Positions 15,839 to 30,394 of a stretch of 50,971 nucleotides of DNA are shown here, piece by piece (the stretch's first letter is position 1; the number at the start of each line of letters is the position of its first letter). The translations under genes were made by a program, and so were the position numbers. Source of the stretch: Thermoanaerobacter sp. A7A (GTDB lineage: Bacteria > Bacillota > Thermoanaerobacteria > Thermoanaerobacterales > Thermoanaerobacteraceae); contig NZ_AVAF01000085.1 of assembly GCF_000445185.1 (NCBI RefSeq), forward strand, positions 1-50,971. The letters are read 5' to 3'. The notes under the pieces were generated by a model. It saw nothing but the letters and a program-made list of their open reading frames with translations. It had not been told where the DNA came from and did no database searches.

Positions 15839-15865
15839 TGCCAAATTATTGGCACGGATTTTGCA
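15839..15865 (+). promoter_or_regulatory. Sigma-54 promoter of the galactitol-type PTS operon, overlapped by a hairpin
   Basis: TGGCAC (15850-15855), five bases, then TTGCA (15861-15865): a perfect -24/-12 match. An inverted repeat TGCCAA (15839-15844) / TTGGCA (15849-15854) overlaps the -24 half. It starts 9 bases after the activator's stop codon and 38 bases before the EIIA gene. Confidence 0.92.
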
Positions 15866-23255: not shown

Positions 23256-26003
23256 TTGACAAACAAAGAAAGAGTATTTAATTTAGTAAAGGATTTATCA
23301 AAAGAAATAAATATTAAAGAAAAGAAGGGATTGACTGCCCAAGAAATTGCCAAAAAATTGAATTTGAGAAGGAATGTGGCAAGCCATTTATTAAATGAAC
23401 TTTATAAAGAGGGCAAAATAATAAAAATAAACACAAGGCCTGTCTATTTTTTAGACAAAGAAGTTTATGAAAAGAAGGCAAAAGAATTCAAAGAAACGGC
23501 TAAAACTTTGGATTCAACTGTAAAGGTTTCAAACGATGACCCTTTTACAAAGCTTATAGGATATAACGGCAGTCTTAAAACACAAGTGAAATTATGCAAA
23601 TCTGCTGCTTCCTATCCTCCCAATGGACTACCTATTTTGCTTATTGGAAATACAGGAGTAGGTAAAAGCTTCATTGCTCAACTTATTTACGAATATGCAA
23701 AATCGATCAATGCCATAGATGAAAATGCTCCATATGTGATATTTAATTGCGCTGAGTATGCTAACAATCCTGAACTACTTTCCGCAAACCTTTTTGGCTA
23801 TGTAAAAGGAGCATTTACAGGTGCTGATAAAGATAAACCCGGCCTTTTAGAAGAAGCGGATGGAGGATATTTGTTTTTGGATGAAGTTCACAGATTGCCG
23901 CCAGAAGGGCAGGAAAAACTGTTTCTATTTTTGGACAAGGGAATATTTAGAAGGCTTGGTGAGACAGGCAATTGGAGAACGGCGAAAGTGAGGTTTATTT
24001 TTGCTACAACAGAAGACCCTGAGCAAACTCTTACAAAGACTTTTTTAAGAAGAATCCCATTAGTTGTAAATATTCCTTCCCTTTATGACAGACCTTTACA
24101 TGAAAGGTTACAACTTATCTATAACTTTTACAAAAATGAGGCAAAAAATCTGGGAATGGATATTTTAATAAGCAAGCAAGTATTGAATGTTCTTCTTAAG
24201 ACCAAAATATCCGGCAACATTGGCCAGCTTATGAATGTCATAAAATACAGCTGTGCTCAAGCCTATAACCATGTCATAAGAGAGAAGACAAATATATTGC
24301 GAATCCATCTATATGACCTGCCGAGAGAAATGCAGGCTGATTTAGATATAATAAAAAGTAATTTTCACTTTAACGGCATGTTAATTTCTCACAATAGGAA
24401 AGATGAAGATTTAACATGGGATAAAGGAGACGATAGAGAGGTTTATGAGGTAGTGAACAAGCTATTTGAACTATTTGAGAGATATAGCAGCAAAGAAATA
24501 AGTGAGGATACTTTTAAAAAAGACGCTTTAATTTATTTGAATGAATTTACAGATAAAATAATTTTTAAAAATGACAATACTTATATAGATTCGATAGTTT
24601 TCAATGCTATCAAAAGCGTAGTGGAGAATGTGTTAAATATAATACAAAATATGTATGGGATTAAATATTATGGTAATTCAGTTTTAGTATTGACGCATTT
24701 TATTAATTATTTATTAAGCGATGTAACTTACGAGAAGTATTCTGAGAATATAAAAATGGTATACAGAGTTTTGAAAAATGTTTTTCCCAAAGAGTTTATA
24801 ATAGCTAATAAAATGGTAGAACTTATTGAAGTTAACCTGGACGTCAAGCTCAACCAAATAGCTGTAATTTATTTTACGCTTTATATTAAAAGTTTAAATA
24901 AAAGTGACAATACAAATCTCATAAATTCTATAATAATAGCCCATGGTTATTCAACTGCCAGTAGCATAGCCAGCGTCGCCAATAGGCTTTTGGGACAGTT
25001 TGTTTTTGAAGCTTTTGATATGCCAATTGAGATGTCAACACAGGAAATTATGCTAAAAGTTCAAGATTATTTAAAGAATATAGATACCTCCAAAGGAATC
25101 ATTATATTGGTTGATATGGGTTCTTTAGAGGAGATATACAAGTCTTTGACTGACATTGTCGAGGGAGACATAGCAATTATTAATAATATTACTACTCAAT
25201 TGGCTTTAGACGTTGGCAACAAGATAATGCAAAATCAGCCTATAGAACAAATTGTTACAGAATCAATCCAAAGAAATAGCAGTAGTTATAAACTCATTAA
25301 GTCGCAAAAAAATAAAAGAAATGCTATTATTGCTACTTGTATAACGGGAATAGGAACTGCTGTAAAAATAAAAGAACTTTTAAAAGAATGCTTTGTAAAT
25401 GAAGATATTGAAATAATTGCGTACGATTATAATAGACTTAAAGGTAATGGTGTAAAAGACGAGATATTTAAAGACTTTAATGTTAAATTAATTATTGGTA
25501 CAGCAGATCCTGGCATAAAAGAAATACCTTATTTGTCGTTAGAAGATTTGATTGCTGGAAAGGGCGATGTACTATTGAGTAAAGTTTTAAGAGGGGTTGC
25601 GGATGCTGAAAAAATTCAGCGAATCAATCAAACGATAGTCAGACTTTTTTCTTTGCAAAATGTGTTACATCATTTGACAATATTAAATCCTGATAAAATA
25701 ATTGCTCAAGTTGAAAAAGCTATTTCCGATTTAGAAAGATTCATTGGTGTGAGGCTTTCAAATGATTTAAAAATAAGCTTATATATACACGTTAGTGTAA
25801 TGATTGAAAGATTAGTAATGAAAGAGCCCATTGTGTTTTACAGTAGTTTAGAAGAGTTTGAACAGTGTCATAGACAGTTCATAAATTTCGTTAAATCTTC
25901 TTTTAGTGTCATAGAAGAGATGTACAAAATTGAAATTCCTACATCAGAAATAAGGCTGATATATGATATTATAAAAGATAGAGTAGCAGAGTTAAATGTG
26001 TAA
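23256..26003 (+). CDS. LevR-type sigma-54-dependent PTS-regulated activator (module B)
   Basis: Activator of the mannose-type PTS operon downstream. The 915-residue protein has an N-terminal winged helix (LTAQEIAKKLNLRRNVASHLLNEL), an AAA+ domain (Walker A GNTGVGKS, GAFTGA loop, GGYLFLDEVHR), PRD1 (VLTHFINYLLSD His near 490), a mannose-type EIIA domain (IIIAHGYSTASSIASVANRL), an EIIB-like domain (ATCITGIGTAVKIK) and a C-terminal PRD2 (LYIHVSVMIERL). This is the canonical LevR order, unlike the module A activator, which ends in a type-2 EIIA. The start is TTG 23256 behind AAGGGGAGA. Activity is probably set by phosphorylation of the PRD histidines by HPr and the module's EIIB. Confidence 0.92.
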   Translation: MTNKERVFNLVKDLSKEINIKEKKGLTAQEIAKKLNLRRNVASHLLNELYKEGKIIKINTRPVYFLDKEVYEKKAKEFKETAKTLDSTVKVSNDDPFTKLIGYNGSLKTQVKLCKSAASYPPNGLPILLIGNTGVGKSFIAQLIYEYAKSINAIDENAPYVIFNCAEYANNPELLSANLFGYVKGAFTGADKDKPGLLEEADGGYLFLDEVHRLPPEGQEKLFLFLDKGIFRRLGETGNWRTAKVRFIFATTEDPEQTLTKTFLRRIPLVVNIPSLYDRPLHERLQLIYNFYKNEAKNLGMDILISKQVLNVLLKTKISGNIGQLMNVIKYSCAQAYNHVIREKTNILRIHLYDLPREMQADLDIIKSNFHFNGMLISHNRKDEDLTWDKGDDREVYEVVNKLFELFERYSSKEISEDTFKKDALIYLNEFTDKIIFKNDNTYIDSIVFNAIKSVVENVLNIIQNMYGIKYYGNSVLVLTHFINYLLSDVTYEKYSENIKMVYRVLKNVFPKEFIIANKMVELIEVNLDVKLNQIAVIYFTLYIKSLNKSDNTNLINSIIIAHGYSTASSIASVANRLLGQFVFEAFDMPIEMSTQEIMLKVQDYLKNIDTSKGIIILVDMGSLEEIYKSLTDIVEGDIAIINNITTQLALDVGNKIMQNQPIEQIVTESIQRNSSSYKLIKSQKNKRNAIIATCITGIGTAVKIKELLKECFVNEDIEIIAYDYNRLKGNGVKDEIFKDFNVKLIIGTADPGIKEIPYLSLEDLIAGKGDVLLSKVLRGVADAEKIQRINQTIVRLFSLQNVLHHLTILNPDKIIAQVEKAISDLERFIGVRLSNDLKISLYIHVSVMIERLVMKEPIVFYSSLEEFEQCHRQFINFVKSSFSVIEEMYKIEIPTSEIRLIYDIIKDRVAELNV

Positions 26004-26009
26004 TTAATC

Positions 26010-26054
26010 AAAGCATGCTGAATAGTTAGTACACTATTTGGCATGCTTTTTGCA
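26010..26054 (+). promoter_or_regulatory. Sigma-54 promoter of the mannose-type PTS operon inside a terminator-like hairpin
   Basis: TGGCAT (26039-26044), five bases, TTGCA (26050-26054): a -24/-12 match. The -24 element lies in the 3' arm of a 16-bp hairpin (26010-26025 with 26034-26049, two G-T wobbles), whose T-run overlaps the -12. The hairpin begins 6 bases after the activator's stop, so it probably ends that transcript. Confidence 0.88.
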
Positions 26055-26173
26055 TTATAAAGAAGCAGATAAAAATTTAAAATAAAGTATAGTTAACATC
26101 AACTTTTAAAAAAGTTTCAAAGAAGTATTTTAAAATTCAAAGTTAAAGATATTAGCAAAGCGGAGGTGTAGTA

Positions 26174-26584
26174 GTGAAAGAAAAATTCGTACTAATTATT
26201 ACACATGGAAATTTTGGGAAAGGATTATTAAACGGAATTGAGGTGATTATGGGAAAACAGGAAAATGTGTTAGCCTTGGGACTTAATTTAGGGGATAATA
26301 TCGAGCTTTTAAGAGCTGAAGTTGAAAAGATTGTTAGAGAAAAGCTAAGAGAGAACAAGGAAGTGATAATTGCTGTAGATTTATTTGGGGGAAGTCCATT
26401 CAATATCGCGCTTTATGTTATGAAAAACTATGATGTAAAAGTTATAACAGGAATTAATATGCCTATGCTGATAGAATTATTATCATCTATTAATATGTAT
26501 GATATTGATGAATTATTAAAAAATATTCACAAGTCAGCTGTTGATGGAATTAAAGTAATAGAAAAAAGTTCACTTAAGTTTTAG
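26174..26584 (+). CDS. PTS EIIA, mannose family
   Basis: A 136-residue EIIA-Man domain: active His11 in LIITHGNFGKGLL, and VDLFGGSPFNIAL, conserved in the family. Start is GTG 26174 behind GCGGAGGTG. First gene of the sigma-54 operon, with about 110 bases of leader. Confidence 0.9.
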   Translation: MKEKFVLIITHGNFGKGLLNGIEVIMGKQENVLALGLNLGDNIELLRAEVEKIVREKLRENKEVIIAVDLFGGSPFNIALYVMKNYDVKVITGINMPMLIELLSSINMYDIDELLKNIHKSAVDGIKVIEKSSLKF

Positions 26585-26604
26585 AGAAGAAAGGAAGGAA
26601 GAGC

Positions 26605-27108
26605 ATGTGGAAAGTGGTATTTGCAAGAGTCGATGACCGATTGATTCATGGTCAAATAATGACAAGATGGATGAAAGGATTTCCAGGAGCTTCCATTGTG
26701 ATTGTAGATGATAGTTTAGCTGTTGACAATTTTATGAAAAACATTTATACGATGGCTGCACCGCCAGGTGTAAAAGTAAAAGTGGTAAGTGTTGATACCG
26801 CATTAAAGGAATGGAATCAAAAAGCTAACATTGATGAAAAGGTATTCTTACTTTTTAAGGACATTCAAACGGTAGAAAGAACGATAAAAGAAGGAATTCC
26901 TATTAAAACTCTCAATATTGGTGGTGTTGCAAAGATGCCAGACAAAAAAGCTATAACACAAAGTGTAAATTTAAATTCTCAAGAAGCAGAGATTTTATGG
27001 AATTTACACCGGAATTTTGGCATAGAGATATATTTACAAATGGTGCCAGATAGTGAAAAGCTAAGTATAAATACTGTTATAGAAAAGTATTTTCCGCAGT
27101 TGAAATAA
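26605..27108 (+). CDS. PTS EIIB, mannose family
   Basis: A 167-residue EIIB-Man/Fru/Sor domain. Active-site His15 lies in ARVDDRLIHGQIMTRW. Phosphate passes from EIIA to this histidine and then to the sugar. It is 20 bp after EIIA with an AAGGAAGGAAG site. Confidence 0.92.
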   Translation: MWKVVFARVDDRLIHGQIMTRWMKGFPGASIVIVDDSLAVDNFMKNIYTMAAPPGVKVKVVSVDTALKEWNQKANIDEKVFLLFKDIQTVERTIKEGIPIKTLNIGGVAKMPDKKAITQSVNLNSQEAEILWNLHRNFGIEIYLQMVPDSEKLSINTVIEKYFPQLK

Positions 27109-27114
27109 AATTTT

Positions 27115-27196
27115 GATTCACTATAACAATGTATATGCTCTATTAAAAAAGAATAGCTTCAATATTATTCAAGTTTTTAAATTGTTATAGTGGATC
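27115..27196 (+). repeat. Intercistronic three-way-junction hairpin
   Basis: GATTCACTATAACAAT (27115-27130) pairs with ATTGTTATAGTGGATC (27181-27196), 16 bp with one U-G wobble. The 50-base interior holds two small hairpins, CTATT/AATAG and CTTCAAT/ATTCAAG. It sits between EIIB and EIIC-EIID inside one operon, with no T-run, so it may be an mRNA-processing or stability element. Confidence 0.7.
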
Positions 27197-27235
27197 GTTT
27201 TAAATAAAAAATTTCTAAAAGGAGGGTAATGGTTT

Positions 27236-28912
27236 ATGGGTCAAATAACTGTTTTGCAAGCTGCGTTAATAGCTGCATGGGTAGCTGTAGTAGAGTCAAG
27301 AATTATTGGTTATACTTTATCTGGTTTTCTTCGTTTTACGGCTGTAGGAACTGGATTTGTAGTTGGACTTATTATGGGTAATGTACCTCAAGCAATGGTT
27401 ATAGCAGCAACAATACAATTGGTTTATATGGGTATTATTGCACCTGGAGGTACAACACCAAGTGAAACAGTTGTTGCAACTGCTGTAGCAGTTCCTGTGG
27501 CATTGGCATCAGGAATGACACCAGAGCAGTCTATTGCTGTGGCAGTGCCAGTAGGTCTTTTAGCAGCATACTTAGTAAGTTTTAGGTTTTTTATTAACTC
27601 TCTTATAACTCACTGGGTTGATAGATTAGCTGAGGAATTAAATGATAGAGGTATTACCTTTGCATCTGTAGTTCTAACTACTATTATAACAATGGTTTTA
27701 TTTTTCCCTTCAGTGTTTGTTGCAGTTTACTATGGAGCACCTTTAATAGATTCATTTTTAAAAACAATACCTCAAAGTGTGTTACATGCTTTAACTGTTG
27801 TTGGAGGAAGTTTACCTGCTCTAGGTATTGCGTTAACATTAGCAGTAATTGGGCGTAGAGAATTAATGGTATTTTATCTTCTTGCATATTTTGTCTCTTT
27901 AATATTGAAACCTCTTAATGTAAATGCGCTTATCTACGCTATCTTTGGAGGAATTGCAGCATATATATATGTGATTCTATATTATAAAAATGTTTTTGAA
28001 AATGATACAAATGCAGATTATGAGACAAAAAATAGCGAAGATAATGATACCCGCAGAAAAATGGATACCACAATCTCCAACAGCGATATAAAAGTTACAG
28101 AAAAAGACTTGAAATCTACCTGGTTTAGATGGTGGCTTACCACAGAAGTTCCACATTCTTTTGAAAGATTGCAAGCTTTAGCGTTCCAATGGAGTATAAT
28201 GCCTGTTCTAAGAAAATTATATAAGAACAATTTAAATGAATTAAAAGAGGCTTATAAGAGACATCTTGTATTTTTCAACACTCAGGGAACGTGGGGTGGA
28301 GCACCAATTTTAGGAATTACTCTTTCACTTGAAGAACAAAGAGCAAGAGCTATTGCCGACGGGAAAGAAGCTCCTGATCCCAATATCATTAATGCTACAA
28401 AAGTTGGTTTAATGGGACCTTTAGCAGGTATTGGTGATTCTGTAGAATGGTCTACGATTATGTATTTATTAATAGCAATTGCGCTTCCTTGGGCAAAGTC
28501 AGGTAGTGCGATGGGAGCATTATTCCCTTTAATTCTCTTCCCAGTAATTACTTATACTTATGGTTATTATTTCTTAAGACTTGGGTATAGACTAGGTAGG
28601 GAGTCAGTAAACGTGTTACTTGGAGGAGAAAAATTAAAAGCTCTTATTACAGGTCTTTCAACCTTAGGACTTTTTATGATGGGTGTATTAACAAGCTCAT
28701 ATGTATCAATTTCTACTCCTCTTAAATGGACAATTTCTGGAAAAGCATTTGAATTGCAAGCAATATTAGATAAAATACTCCCAGGTATGTTGCCGCTTCT
28801 TACCGTATTGCTGGTATATTGGTATTTTACCAAGAAAGGATTAAAGGTTCTAAAAGTTCTTGGATGGATGGTAGTTATATTCTTCATATTAGGTTGGATA
28901 GGAATCCTATAA
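27236..28912 (+). CDS. Fused PTS EIIC-EIID, mannose family
   Basis: The membrane part of the module B transporter. The 558-residue protein joins an EIIC domain (1-250, IGYTLSGFLRF, GTTPSETVVATAVAVPVALASGMTPEQSIAVAVPVG), a hydrophilic Asp/Asn/Lys-rich linker (about 251-287) and an EIID domain (about 288-558, WFRWWLTTEVPHSFERLQALAF, GVTW-type FNTQGTWGGAPILGI, GLMGPLAGIGDSVEW). The two are normally separate genes; the frame is open throughout, so this is a real fusion. The start ATG 27236 follows AAAAGGAGGGTAATGG. Substrate is probably gluconate, judged from the next gene. Confidence 0.9.
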   Translation: MGQITVLQAALIAAWVAVVESRIIGYTLSGFLRFTAVGTGFVVGLIMGNVPQAMVIAATIQLVYMGIIAPGGTTPSETVVATAVAVPVALASGMTPEQSIAVAVPVGLLAAYLVSFRFFINSLITHWVDRLAEELNDRGITFASVVLTTIITMVLFFPSVFVAVYYGAPLIDSFLKTIPQSVLHALTVVGGSLPALGIALTLAVIGRRELMVFYLLAYFVSLILKPLNVNALIYAIFGGIAAYIYVILYYKNVFENDTNADYETKNSEDNDTRRKMDTTISNSDIKVTEKDLKSTWFRWWLTTEVPHSFERLQALAFQWSIMPVLRKLYKNNLNELKEAYKRHLVFFNTQGTWGGAPILGITLSLEEQRARAIADGKEAPDPNIINATKVGLMGPLAGIGDSVEWSTIMYLLIAIALPWAKSGSAMGALFPLILFPVITYTYGYYFLRLGYRLGRESVNVLLGGEKLKALITGLSTLGLFMMGVLTSSYVSISTPLKWTISGKAFELQAILDKILPGMLPLLTVLLVYWYFTKKGLKVLKVLGWMVVIFFILGWIGIL

Positions 28913-28954: not shown

Positions 28955-28987
28955 GTTTAAAAACTTGACTAGTTGGAGGGAGTAAAA

Positions 28988-30394
28988 ATGAAGAATGATG
29001 TAGGTCTAATAGGACTTGCGGTAATGGGGCAAAACTTTGTTTTGAACATGGCCAGAAATGGTTATAGTGTTTCAGTGTACAACAGGACAGAAGAGAAAAC
29101 GAAGAAATTTATTGAGGAAAAAGTAAAAGATGAAAAAATTTATCCTTTTTATGCCTTAAAAAATTTTGTAGAAAGCTTGGAAAGACCGAGAAAAATTATA
29201 TTAATGATAAAAGCCGGGGAACCGGTAGATAATATGATTAATGAACTTTTGACGTATTTAGAACCTGGAGACCTTGTGGTAGATAGTGGTAATTCTAATT
29301 TTAGAGATACTTCTAGAAGATTAAAGTATTTGTCAGAGAAGGGAATTTTATTTTTAGGGATGGGGATTTCAGGTGGAGAATATGGAGCATTACATGGTCC
29401 ATCTTTAATGCCAGGAGGGACAAAAGAAGCATATGATTTAATAAAAGATGTACTTTTAAAAGTATCTGCAAAAACTGAAAATGGAGCATGTTGCACATAT
29501 GTAGGAAACGATTCTGCAGGTCATTTTGTGAAAATGGTTCATAATGGTATTGAATATGCTATTATGCAGTTAATTGCTGAAGTATATGATTTTATGAAAA
29601 AGGTATTGAATATAACTAATGAACAAATAAGCGATGTCTTTGAAAAATGGAATAAGGAAGAACTTAATTCCTATTTAATGGAAATTTCTTATAAGATTAT
29701 GAGATATAAAGACAAGGAGACAGGAGGATTTTTGATAGATTACATTTTAGATAAAGCAGAACAAAAAGGCACTGGAAAGTGGACTGCTCAAACTTCTTTG
29801 GATTTAGGAGTTCCTACACCAACATTGAATTTGGCGGTAGAGGCCAGAGTTATTTCTCATTACAAGGAAGAAAGAAAAACTTTATCAAAATTATATTCGA
29901 AAGAAAAGAATACAATCTCTGTGAATAAAGAAGAAATGATAGAGCATTTAAAAAAGACACTGCTTTTTGGAGTATTCATGTCATTTTCACAAGGATTATG
30001 GCTCATTTATGAAGCTTCAAAACAATATAATTATGGAGTAGACCTTAGCGAAATATTAAGAATTTGGAAAGGAGGCTGTATTATAAGAGCAAAAATTTTA
30101 GACTTTTTGAGGGATATCATCAGAGAAAATGAAGAATATGCAAATCTTTTGCATAGTGATAAGTCTATAGAATTTATTAAGGATAAATTAAATTCTGTCT
30201 ATCAAGTTCTAGAAATTGGAAGAAATTATAGAATACCTCTCATGATAATAAATTCTGCAGTTGATTATTATTTTGCTTTAACAGAGGAAAATCTTCCTGC
30301 AAATCTTATTCAAGCCCAACGTGACTTTTTTGGAGCTCATACTTATGAAAGAGTCGATAAAGAAGGAATATTCCACACAGAGTGGGAAAAATAA
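28988..30394 (+). CDS. gnd: 6-phosphogluconate dehydrogenase, decarboxylating
   Basis: Oxidises 6-phosphogluconate to ribulose 5-phosphate and CO2. The 468-residue protein has the N-terminal Rossmann motif VGLIGLAVMGQNFVLNMARNG, SGGEYGALHGPSLMPGG (substrate loop), the catalytic lysine/asparagine segment HFVKMVHNGIEYA and the C-terminal GTGKWTAQTSLDLGVP. It is full length for long-form 6PGDH. ATG 28988 follows TTGGAGGGAGT. Its place behind a mannose-type PTS suggests that the PTS delivers gluconate 6-phosphate directly to this enzyme. Confidence 0.95.
   Translation: MKNDVGLIGLAVMGQNFVLNMARNGYSVSVYNRTEEKTKKFIEEKVKDEKIYPFYALKNFVESLERPRKIILMIKAGEPVDNMINELLTYLEPGDLVVDSGNSNFRDTSRRLKYLSEKGILFLGMGISGGEYGALHGPSLMPGGTKEAYDLIKDVLLKVSAKTENGACCTYVGNDSAGHFVKMVHNGIEYAIMQLIAEVYDFMKKVLNITNEQISDVFEKWNKEELNSYLMEISYKIMRYKDKETGGFLIDYILDKAEQKGTGKWTAQTSLDLGVPTPTLNLAVEARVISHYKEERKTLSKLYSKEKNTISVNKEEMIEHLKKTLLFGVFMSFSQGLWLIYEASKQYNYGVDLSEILRIWKGGCIIRAKILDFLRDIIRENEEYANLLHSDKSIEFIKDKLNSVYQVLEIGRNYRIPLMIINSAVDYYFALTEENLPANLIQAQRDFFGAHTYERVDKEGIFHTEWEK

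Follow-up and report, generated by a model that had tools for sequence, protein, structure and literature searches.

A putative intrinsic terminator of a LevR-type activator gene overlapping the predicted sigma-54 promoter of a PTS operon in Thermoanaerobacter

The window, i.e. the whole 50,971 nt stretch analysed (contig NZ_AVAF01000085.1 of Thermoanaerobacter sp. A7A), encodes a LevR-type sigma-54 activator (23256..26003) upstream of a mannose-family phosphotransferase system (PTS); these and all features below lie on the + strand. The predicted activator combines an AAA+ domain, with the GAFTGA motif for sigma-54 interaction in its translation, with PRD and EIIA-man-like domains (Pfam PF00158, PF00874 twice and PF03610), the architecture of a LevR-type PRD activator. 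The PTS region (26174..28912; PF03610, PF03830, PF03609 and PF03613) consists of genes for EIIA (26174–26584), preceded by a ribosome-binding site GGAGG (26162..26166), EIIB (26605–27108) and an EIIC–EIID fusion (27236–28912). A 6-phosphogluconate dehydrogenase gene (28973..30394; PF00393, PF03446) is likely to belong to the same operon. The genome encodes rpoN (PF04552, 220 bits, E = 2.1e-65), and the host genus also includes Thermoanaerobacter thermocopriae and T. wiegelii.

Six bases past the activator stop codon TAA (26001–26003) begins a hairpin of 17 pairs (15 Watson–Crick, two G-U) with a 6-base loop (26010–26049). The 5' arm, AAAGCATGCTGAATAGT (26010..26026), is separated by the loop TAGTAC (26027..26032) from the 3' arm, ACTATTTGGCATGCTTT (26033..26049), which contains a -24 element and ends in TTTGGCATGCTTT; folding defines the arms, and they covary in relatives. 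The stem-loop alone is predicted at -21.5 kcal/mol (centroid fold), and the 81-nt fold around it has z = -3.6, with none of 200 shuffles as good. Its stability and its position just after the coding region are those of an intrinsic terminator. The T-run (26047..26051) is formed by the spacer and the TT of the -12 element of a sigma-54 promoter, TGGCATGCTTTTTGCA (26039..26054; -24 TGGCAT at 26039–26044, -12 TTGCA at 26050–26054). This site conforms to TGGCAY-N5-TTGCW, with the GG and GC at their fixed spacing, and is a perfect match to the consensus TGGCAYGNNNNTTGCW, of which there are only nine in the whole 2.6 Mb draft genome. All nine lie on the + strand of their contigs, perhaps through contig ordering and perhaps by chance.

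An earlier note had described a 16-bp hairpin and T-run after the activator gene, with the -24 element in the 3' arm and the T-run entering the -12 element, so that every base does two jobs. The hairpin and T-run are present, the stem being of 17 pairs and not 16, and the placing of both promoter elements is borne out by the sequence at 26033–26054. Double use is confined to the 13 bases common to hairpin or T-run and promoter (26039–26051); the 5' arm and loop serve the hairpin only, unless the possible TACAC element counts as a second use, and the terminator does not extend to the GC of the -12 element.

The U-tract is modest, since TTTTT, followed by GCATT, is partly inside the stem and is broken by the GC of the -12 element. 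A generic terminator scanner with a strict pattern (at least five T in the eight bases after the stem) does not call the hairpin, because three of the T's are already inside the stem; the tract passes a looser rule of four T in six. The PTS transcript is predicted from sigma-54 promoter geometry to start at 26065, 12 nt after the C of the -12 element. The hairpin was also considered as an attenuator of the PTS mRNA, and this was rejected because the predicted start is downstream of it.

As a test against chance, the promoter was kept fixed while the 60 upstream bases were dinucleotide-shuffled, and the stability of the hairpin pairing the -24 GG was scored. In 5000 shuffles the hairpin of the element at 26010–26049 (module B) was never equalled in stability. 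This shuffling replaced pattern counts as the main statistic because a scrambled-arm control (ACCGT) matched the true palindromes of the sister genus. A counterpart elsewhere in the window (module A, 15839..15865), in which TGCCAA-ATTA-TTGGCA lies over the -24 element of TGGCACGGATTTTGCA, is weak and has no T-run after the stem. Here 853 of 5000 shuffles do as well, so that it is not significant alone; it was rejected as an equal example and kept as a weak relative. A longer version of this palindrome is conserved in the sister genus.

Comparison of close relatives with the same activator reveals both conservation and rebuilding of the element. Two genomes, G004 and G008 (the latter T. thermocopriae), are identical across all of it. 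In G006, GCATGCC...GGCATGC is kept and the upper stem is rebuilt, with G-C replacing the G-U of the window, while in G005 both arms are changed, to GTGCCAAG...CTTGGCAC. In Caldanaerobacter subterraneus (G007), the long hairpin and six T's are kept after the activator, the -12 element has become TTAC, and the next gene, which is peptidase-like, is followed by a second complete overlap, TGCCAACGG...TTGGCATGGTTTTTGCA, before an ABC-transporter operon. In T. wiegelii (G001) and two relatives (G002 and G009) the terminator is separate and strong, and an intact -24/-12 promoter with a decayed hairpin partner lies about 40 bases beyond it. Since Caldanaerobacter has lost the -12 element with the hairpin kept, and T. 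wiegelii the hairpin partner with the promoter intact, it seems from these sequences that termination and initiation can each be lost without the other. The change in the T. wiegelii relatives may be a rearrangement and not pure relaxation, as the downstream operons differ between these species. In Thermoanaerobacterium the activator is immediately followed by a bare promoter, and a full overlap is found 2.8 kb further on, in the interval separating the first PTS genes from a second EIIB gene. In place of PTS genes, the operon that follows the PTS-type activator at two loci, L184 (Caldanaerobacter) and L032 (AS04 MAG), begins with a gene for an ABC sugar-binding protein or a lipoprotein-like product.

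Among 84,980 species genomes scanned, 80 LevR-type loci were identified, and of those examined further 52 have a sigma-54 site downstream of the activator. A hairpin lies over the -24 element at 12 of 18 orthologous activator loci (42–99% identity to the activator of the window), including those of Clostridium hydrogeniformans, C. guangxiense, C. zeae, C. jeddahtimonense and Tepidanaerobacter; in the surveyed set it is absent from all LevR-type loci below 42% identity. It is also absent from the other six orthologs. Three of these (L150, L152 and L153) have no predicted terminator before the promoter, so that a terminator can evidently be dispensed with. The stem of C. hydrogeniformans and C. 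zeae extends nearly to the -12 element and the T-run is poor; judged from these features, termination may be weak there.

Compensatory changes in relatives, proposed in the earlier note as a check, were found. Across 15 versions, compared with sets in which the 3' letters were shuffled among species, paired cells amounted to 92.4% vs 79.4 ± 1.5, double-sided changes to 30 vs 9.9 ± 2.6 expected, and the covariation score to 0.441 vs 0.226 ± 0.021, comparisons that are inflated by kinship among the sequences and drawn from an alignment trimmed to hairpins, which favours structure. Registers slid by 1–3 bases all score far lower than the true register, and RNAalifold returns the same stem, with double changes in seven of 12 pairs. 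At promoter position 7, in the normally free spacer, all four Watson–Crick pairs are used across relatives. The partner opposite the invariant -24 GG is always C or T and never A or G, as expected for RNA with G-U pairs. Position-wise covariation was preferred to swaps of whole upstream regions between species, which reveal little since the upper half of the 3' arm comes along with each donor region. The compensatory changes indicate that the hairpin is kept as a structure while the -24/-12 elements are kept as a sequence.

The overlap also stands in a complementary relation to separate terminators. Between the activator stop codon and the -24 element, no further terminator is predicted at any of the 11 simple overlapped loci, while a separate one is predicted at 30 of 40 related loci without the overlap. 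In Caldanaerobacter, outside these 11, the old hairpin remains as a predicted terminator ahead of the second overlap. The gap from stop codon to -24 element is 12–40 bp at nine of the 11 overlapped loci (98 and 128 bp at the other two); it has a median near 115 bp at non-overlapped loci, and the overlapped gaps are shorter (Mann–Whitney p = 1.6e-4). It is this trade-off, more than the hairpin itself, which suggests that the hairpin is the terminator of the activator gene. At eight Lactobacillales loci (L205, L206, L214, L220, L222, L223, L225 and L226), the separate terminator stem after the LevR-type activator is built of GATACACT/AGTGTATC inverted repeats; this composition raises the possibility that the separate terminator there may double as an activator-binding site.

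Overlaps of this kind are found beyond the ortholog group. Approximately 400 genomes of the phylum (Firmicutes) were pattern-searched and then folded, only intergenic, folded examples being retained since the pattern search is diluted by coding matches. This gave 11 further intergenic overlaps with long stems, which show recurrence and not frequency because the search pattern requires an inverted repeat; among sites fetched without that filter (L117–L146), none is significant by upstream shuffling. Each of the 10 clean intergenic sites has a co-directional gene upstream, and the eleventh (L232) is covered by a short predicted reading frame. At seven of the 11 the upstream gene encodes a sigma-54 activator: PAS/Fis-type activators precede genes for an E1 dehydrogenase (L085), HpcH (L112) and a GGDEF protein (L098), a LevR-type activator precedes an EIIA gene (L089), and other sigma-54 activators precede an integrase (L229), a beta-eliminating lyase (L234) and, 426 bp away, a [2Fe-2S] ferredoxin subunit (L114). 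The remaining four upstream genes encode HtrA, FeoB (405 bp away), an HD protein and a glucoamylase-like product. The L089 site (G253:C16:18960-18998), between the LevR-type and EIIA genes, is a near-perfect palindrome, GCAAGTTGCGTGCCA/TGGCACGCAACTTGC, with complete sigma-54 promoters on both strands.

Two further elements may be recognized as DNA. A candidate activator-binding site, TGTC-ATA-GACA (25866..25876), lies inside the activator gene, 163 bp upstream of the -24 element, and is exact in 10 of 12 orthologous genes, although coding constraint could contribute to this conservation. The repeats TGTCATAGACA and TGTCATAGAAG occur within the gene at 25866–25876 and 25907–25917, 41 bp apart, the second copy being imperfect. 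These repeats are well conserved in orthologs and are candidate upstream activating sites. The second element, TACACT (26030..26035), occupies the loop and upper stem and starts 9 nt upstream of the -24 T. TACAC occurs within 20 nt upstream of the -24 element in 19 of 52 LevR-type promoters vs 0.7 expected from shuffling, at a near-fixed distance of 9–13 nt from its start to the -24 T (among L147–L226), and T. wiegelii retains it although its hairpin has been lost. The element could be half of an activator site, or an additional part of the promoter. Conserved, placed in the loop and upper stem, and surviving loss of the hairpin, it probably imposes a third, DNA-level constraint on part of the stem.

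Taken together, these comparisons make it very probable that the 45-bp element is a dual-use one, serving as intrinsic terminator of the activator mRNA and as sigma-54 promoter of the PTS operon. This terminator-plus-promoter reading, put forward in the earlier note, gains support from the complementarity with separate terminators, the co-directional upstream genes and the apparent loss of one job alone in two lineages. An improbable alternative is that the inverted repeat is a palindromic protein-binding site, an operator or activator site over the -24 element which acts as DNA, with the RNA hairpin a by-product. The near-fixed TACAC that outlives the hairpin is consistent with this, as is the conservation in the sister genus of the module A palindrome, which has no T-run. 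However, the arms vary among species and yet stay complementary, G-U pairs included, which a sequence-specific protein would not need, nor would such a site be expected to alternate with separate terminators or to lie, at every clean intergenic example, downstream of a co-directional gene. It is very improbable that the main role of the hairpin is to protect or define the 3' end that processing leaves on the activator mRNA, with transcription ending elsewhere or entering the PTS operon. The modest U-tract missed by the strict scanner and the three orthologs lacking a predicted terminator before the promoter would suit such a role, but most versions have a T-run immediately after the stem, and the way in which overlaps and separate terminators replace one another fits termination. 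Chance would mean that a fixed TGGCA and T-rich spacer, giving half a hairpin free, happened on a partner, and the module A hairpin is indeed within chance. For module B it is hardly credible given the 5000 shuffles and the long stems that distant species have rebuilt from other bases, and is refuted there by the covariation.

With dual use as terminator and promoter, the following sequence of events can be envisaged, in which we infer the actual termination and initiation points from sequence. The nascent activator transcript would fold the 17-pair hairpin and RNA polymerase would release in the U-tract at about 26050–26054, insulating the downstream PTS operon from constitutive read-through. 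In its DNA form, the 3' arm together with the U-tract would be the -24/-12 elements, where sigma-54 RNA polymerase would be poised until opening of the promoter by the LevR-type activator, bound upstream and probably inside its own gene, lets PTS mRNA start near 26065. The fusion would allow the promoter to lie within about 35 bp of the activator stop codon. Since polymerase would cross the -24/-12 elements before release, the terminating polymerase and the waiting sigma-54 complex would be mutually exclusive at the site, and occlusion between the terminating and promoter-bound polymerases may result. Disturbance of bound sigma-54 holoenzyme by read-through polymerase, raised in the earlier note, is conjecture. 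A more speculative and rather unlikely extension is that the arrangement is a regulatory interlock and not only compaction, in which activator synthesis and occupancy by the sigma-54 holoenzyme exclude each other, or the released polymerase is captured on the spot by sigma-54. If true, feedback would be inherent in the element, and the arrival of several activator families at the same overlap would be explained.

At such sites two unrelated codes, RNA folding and promoter recognition, appear to be held in the same bases by selection across genera, and different families of activator have apparently reached this arrangement. Sigma-54 promoter spacers can normally vary freely, but this one is coupled to a partner 30–40 bases away. 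Promoter or terminator predictors used alone would mis-score these sites, and mutational scans of such promoters would alter the activator transcript too. The arrangement also allows a test for mutual interference or feeding of terminating polymerases and waiting sigma-54 complexes.

Activators of the LevR (PRD) type are known beside sigma-54 PTS operons, as in Bacillus subtilis lev, Bacillus thuringiensis cel (PMC10864463) and Clostridiales regulons (PMC6615313), and the locus described here resembles these in activator family, -24/-12 promoter and PTS target and, if the candidate sites are genuine, in upstream binding sites. The main text of PMC6615313 and PMC10864463 does not contain the word 'terminator', and neither describes one sharing bases with the -24/-12 elements; searches of the open-access literature found no sigma-54 promoter described as having bases in common with a terminator. 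At most LevR-type loci surveyed here the terminator is separate, unlike the overlapped element. The latter resembles an ordinary intrinsic (Rho-independent) terminator in its hairpin and (modest) U-tract just past a stop codon, but differs in that its 3' arm and U-tract must in addition conform to a promoter, so that the tract can be only about five bases long. A terminator–promoter overlap comparable to that described here is reported for the sol operon of Clostridium saccharoperbutylacetonicum, in which the terminator of an antisense RNA overlaps the downstream promoter P bld-2 and a promoter overlaps the loop of the sol operon terminator (PMC9402939). In contrast to the present element, that system has -35/-10 in place of -24/-12 boxes and involves an antisense RNA, and the parts of the report drawn on here do not describe covariation or recurrence (PMC9402939). 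Both terminator–promoter overlap and LevR-type sigma-54 operons are thus already known, and the sigma-54 version of the overlap is a recurrent variant.
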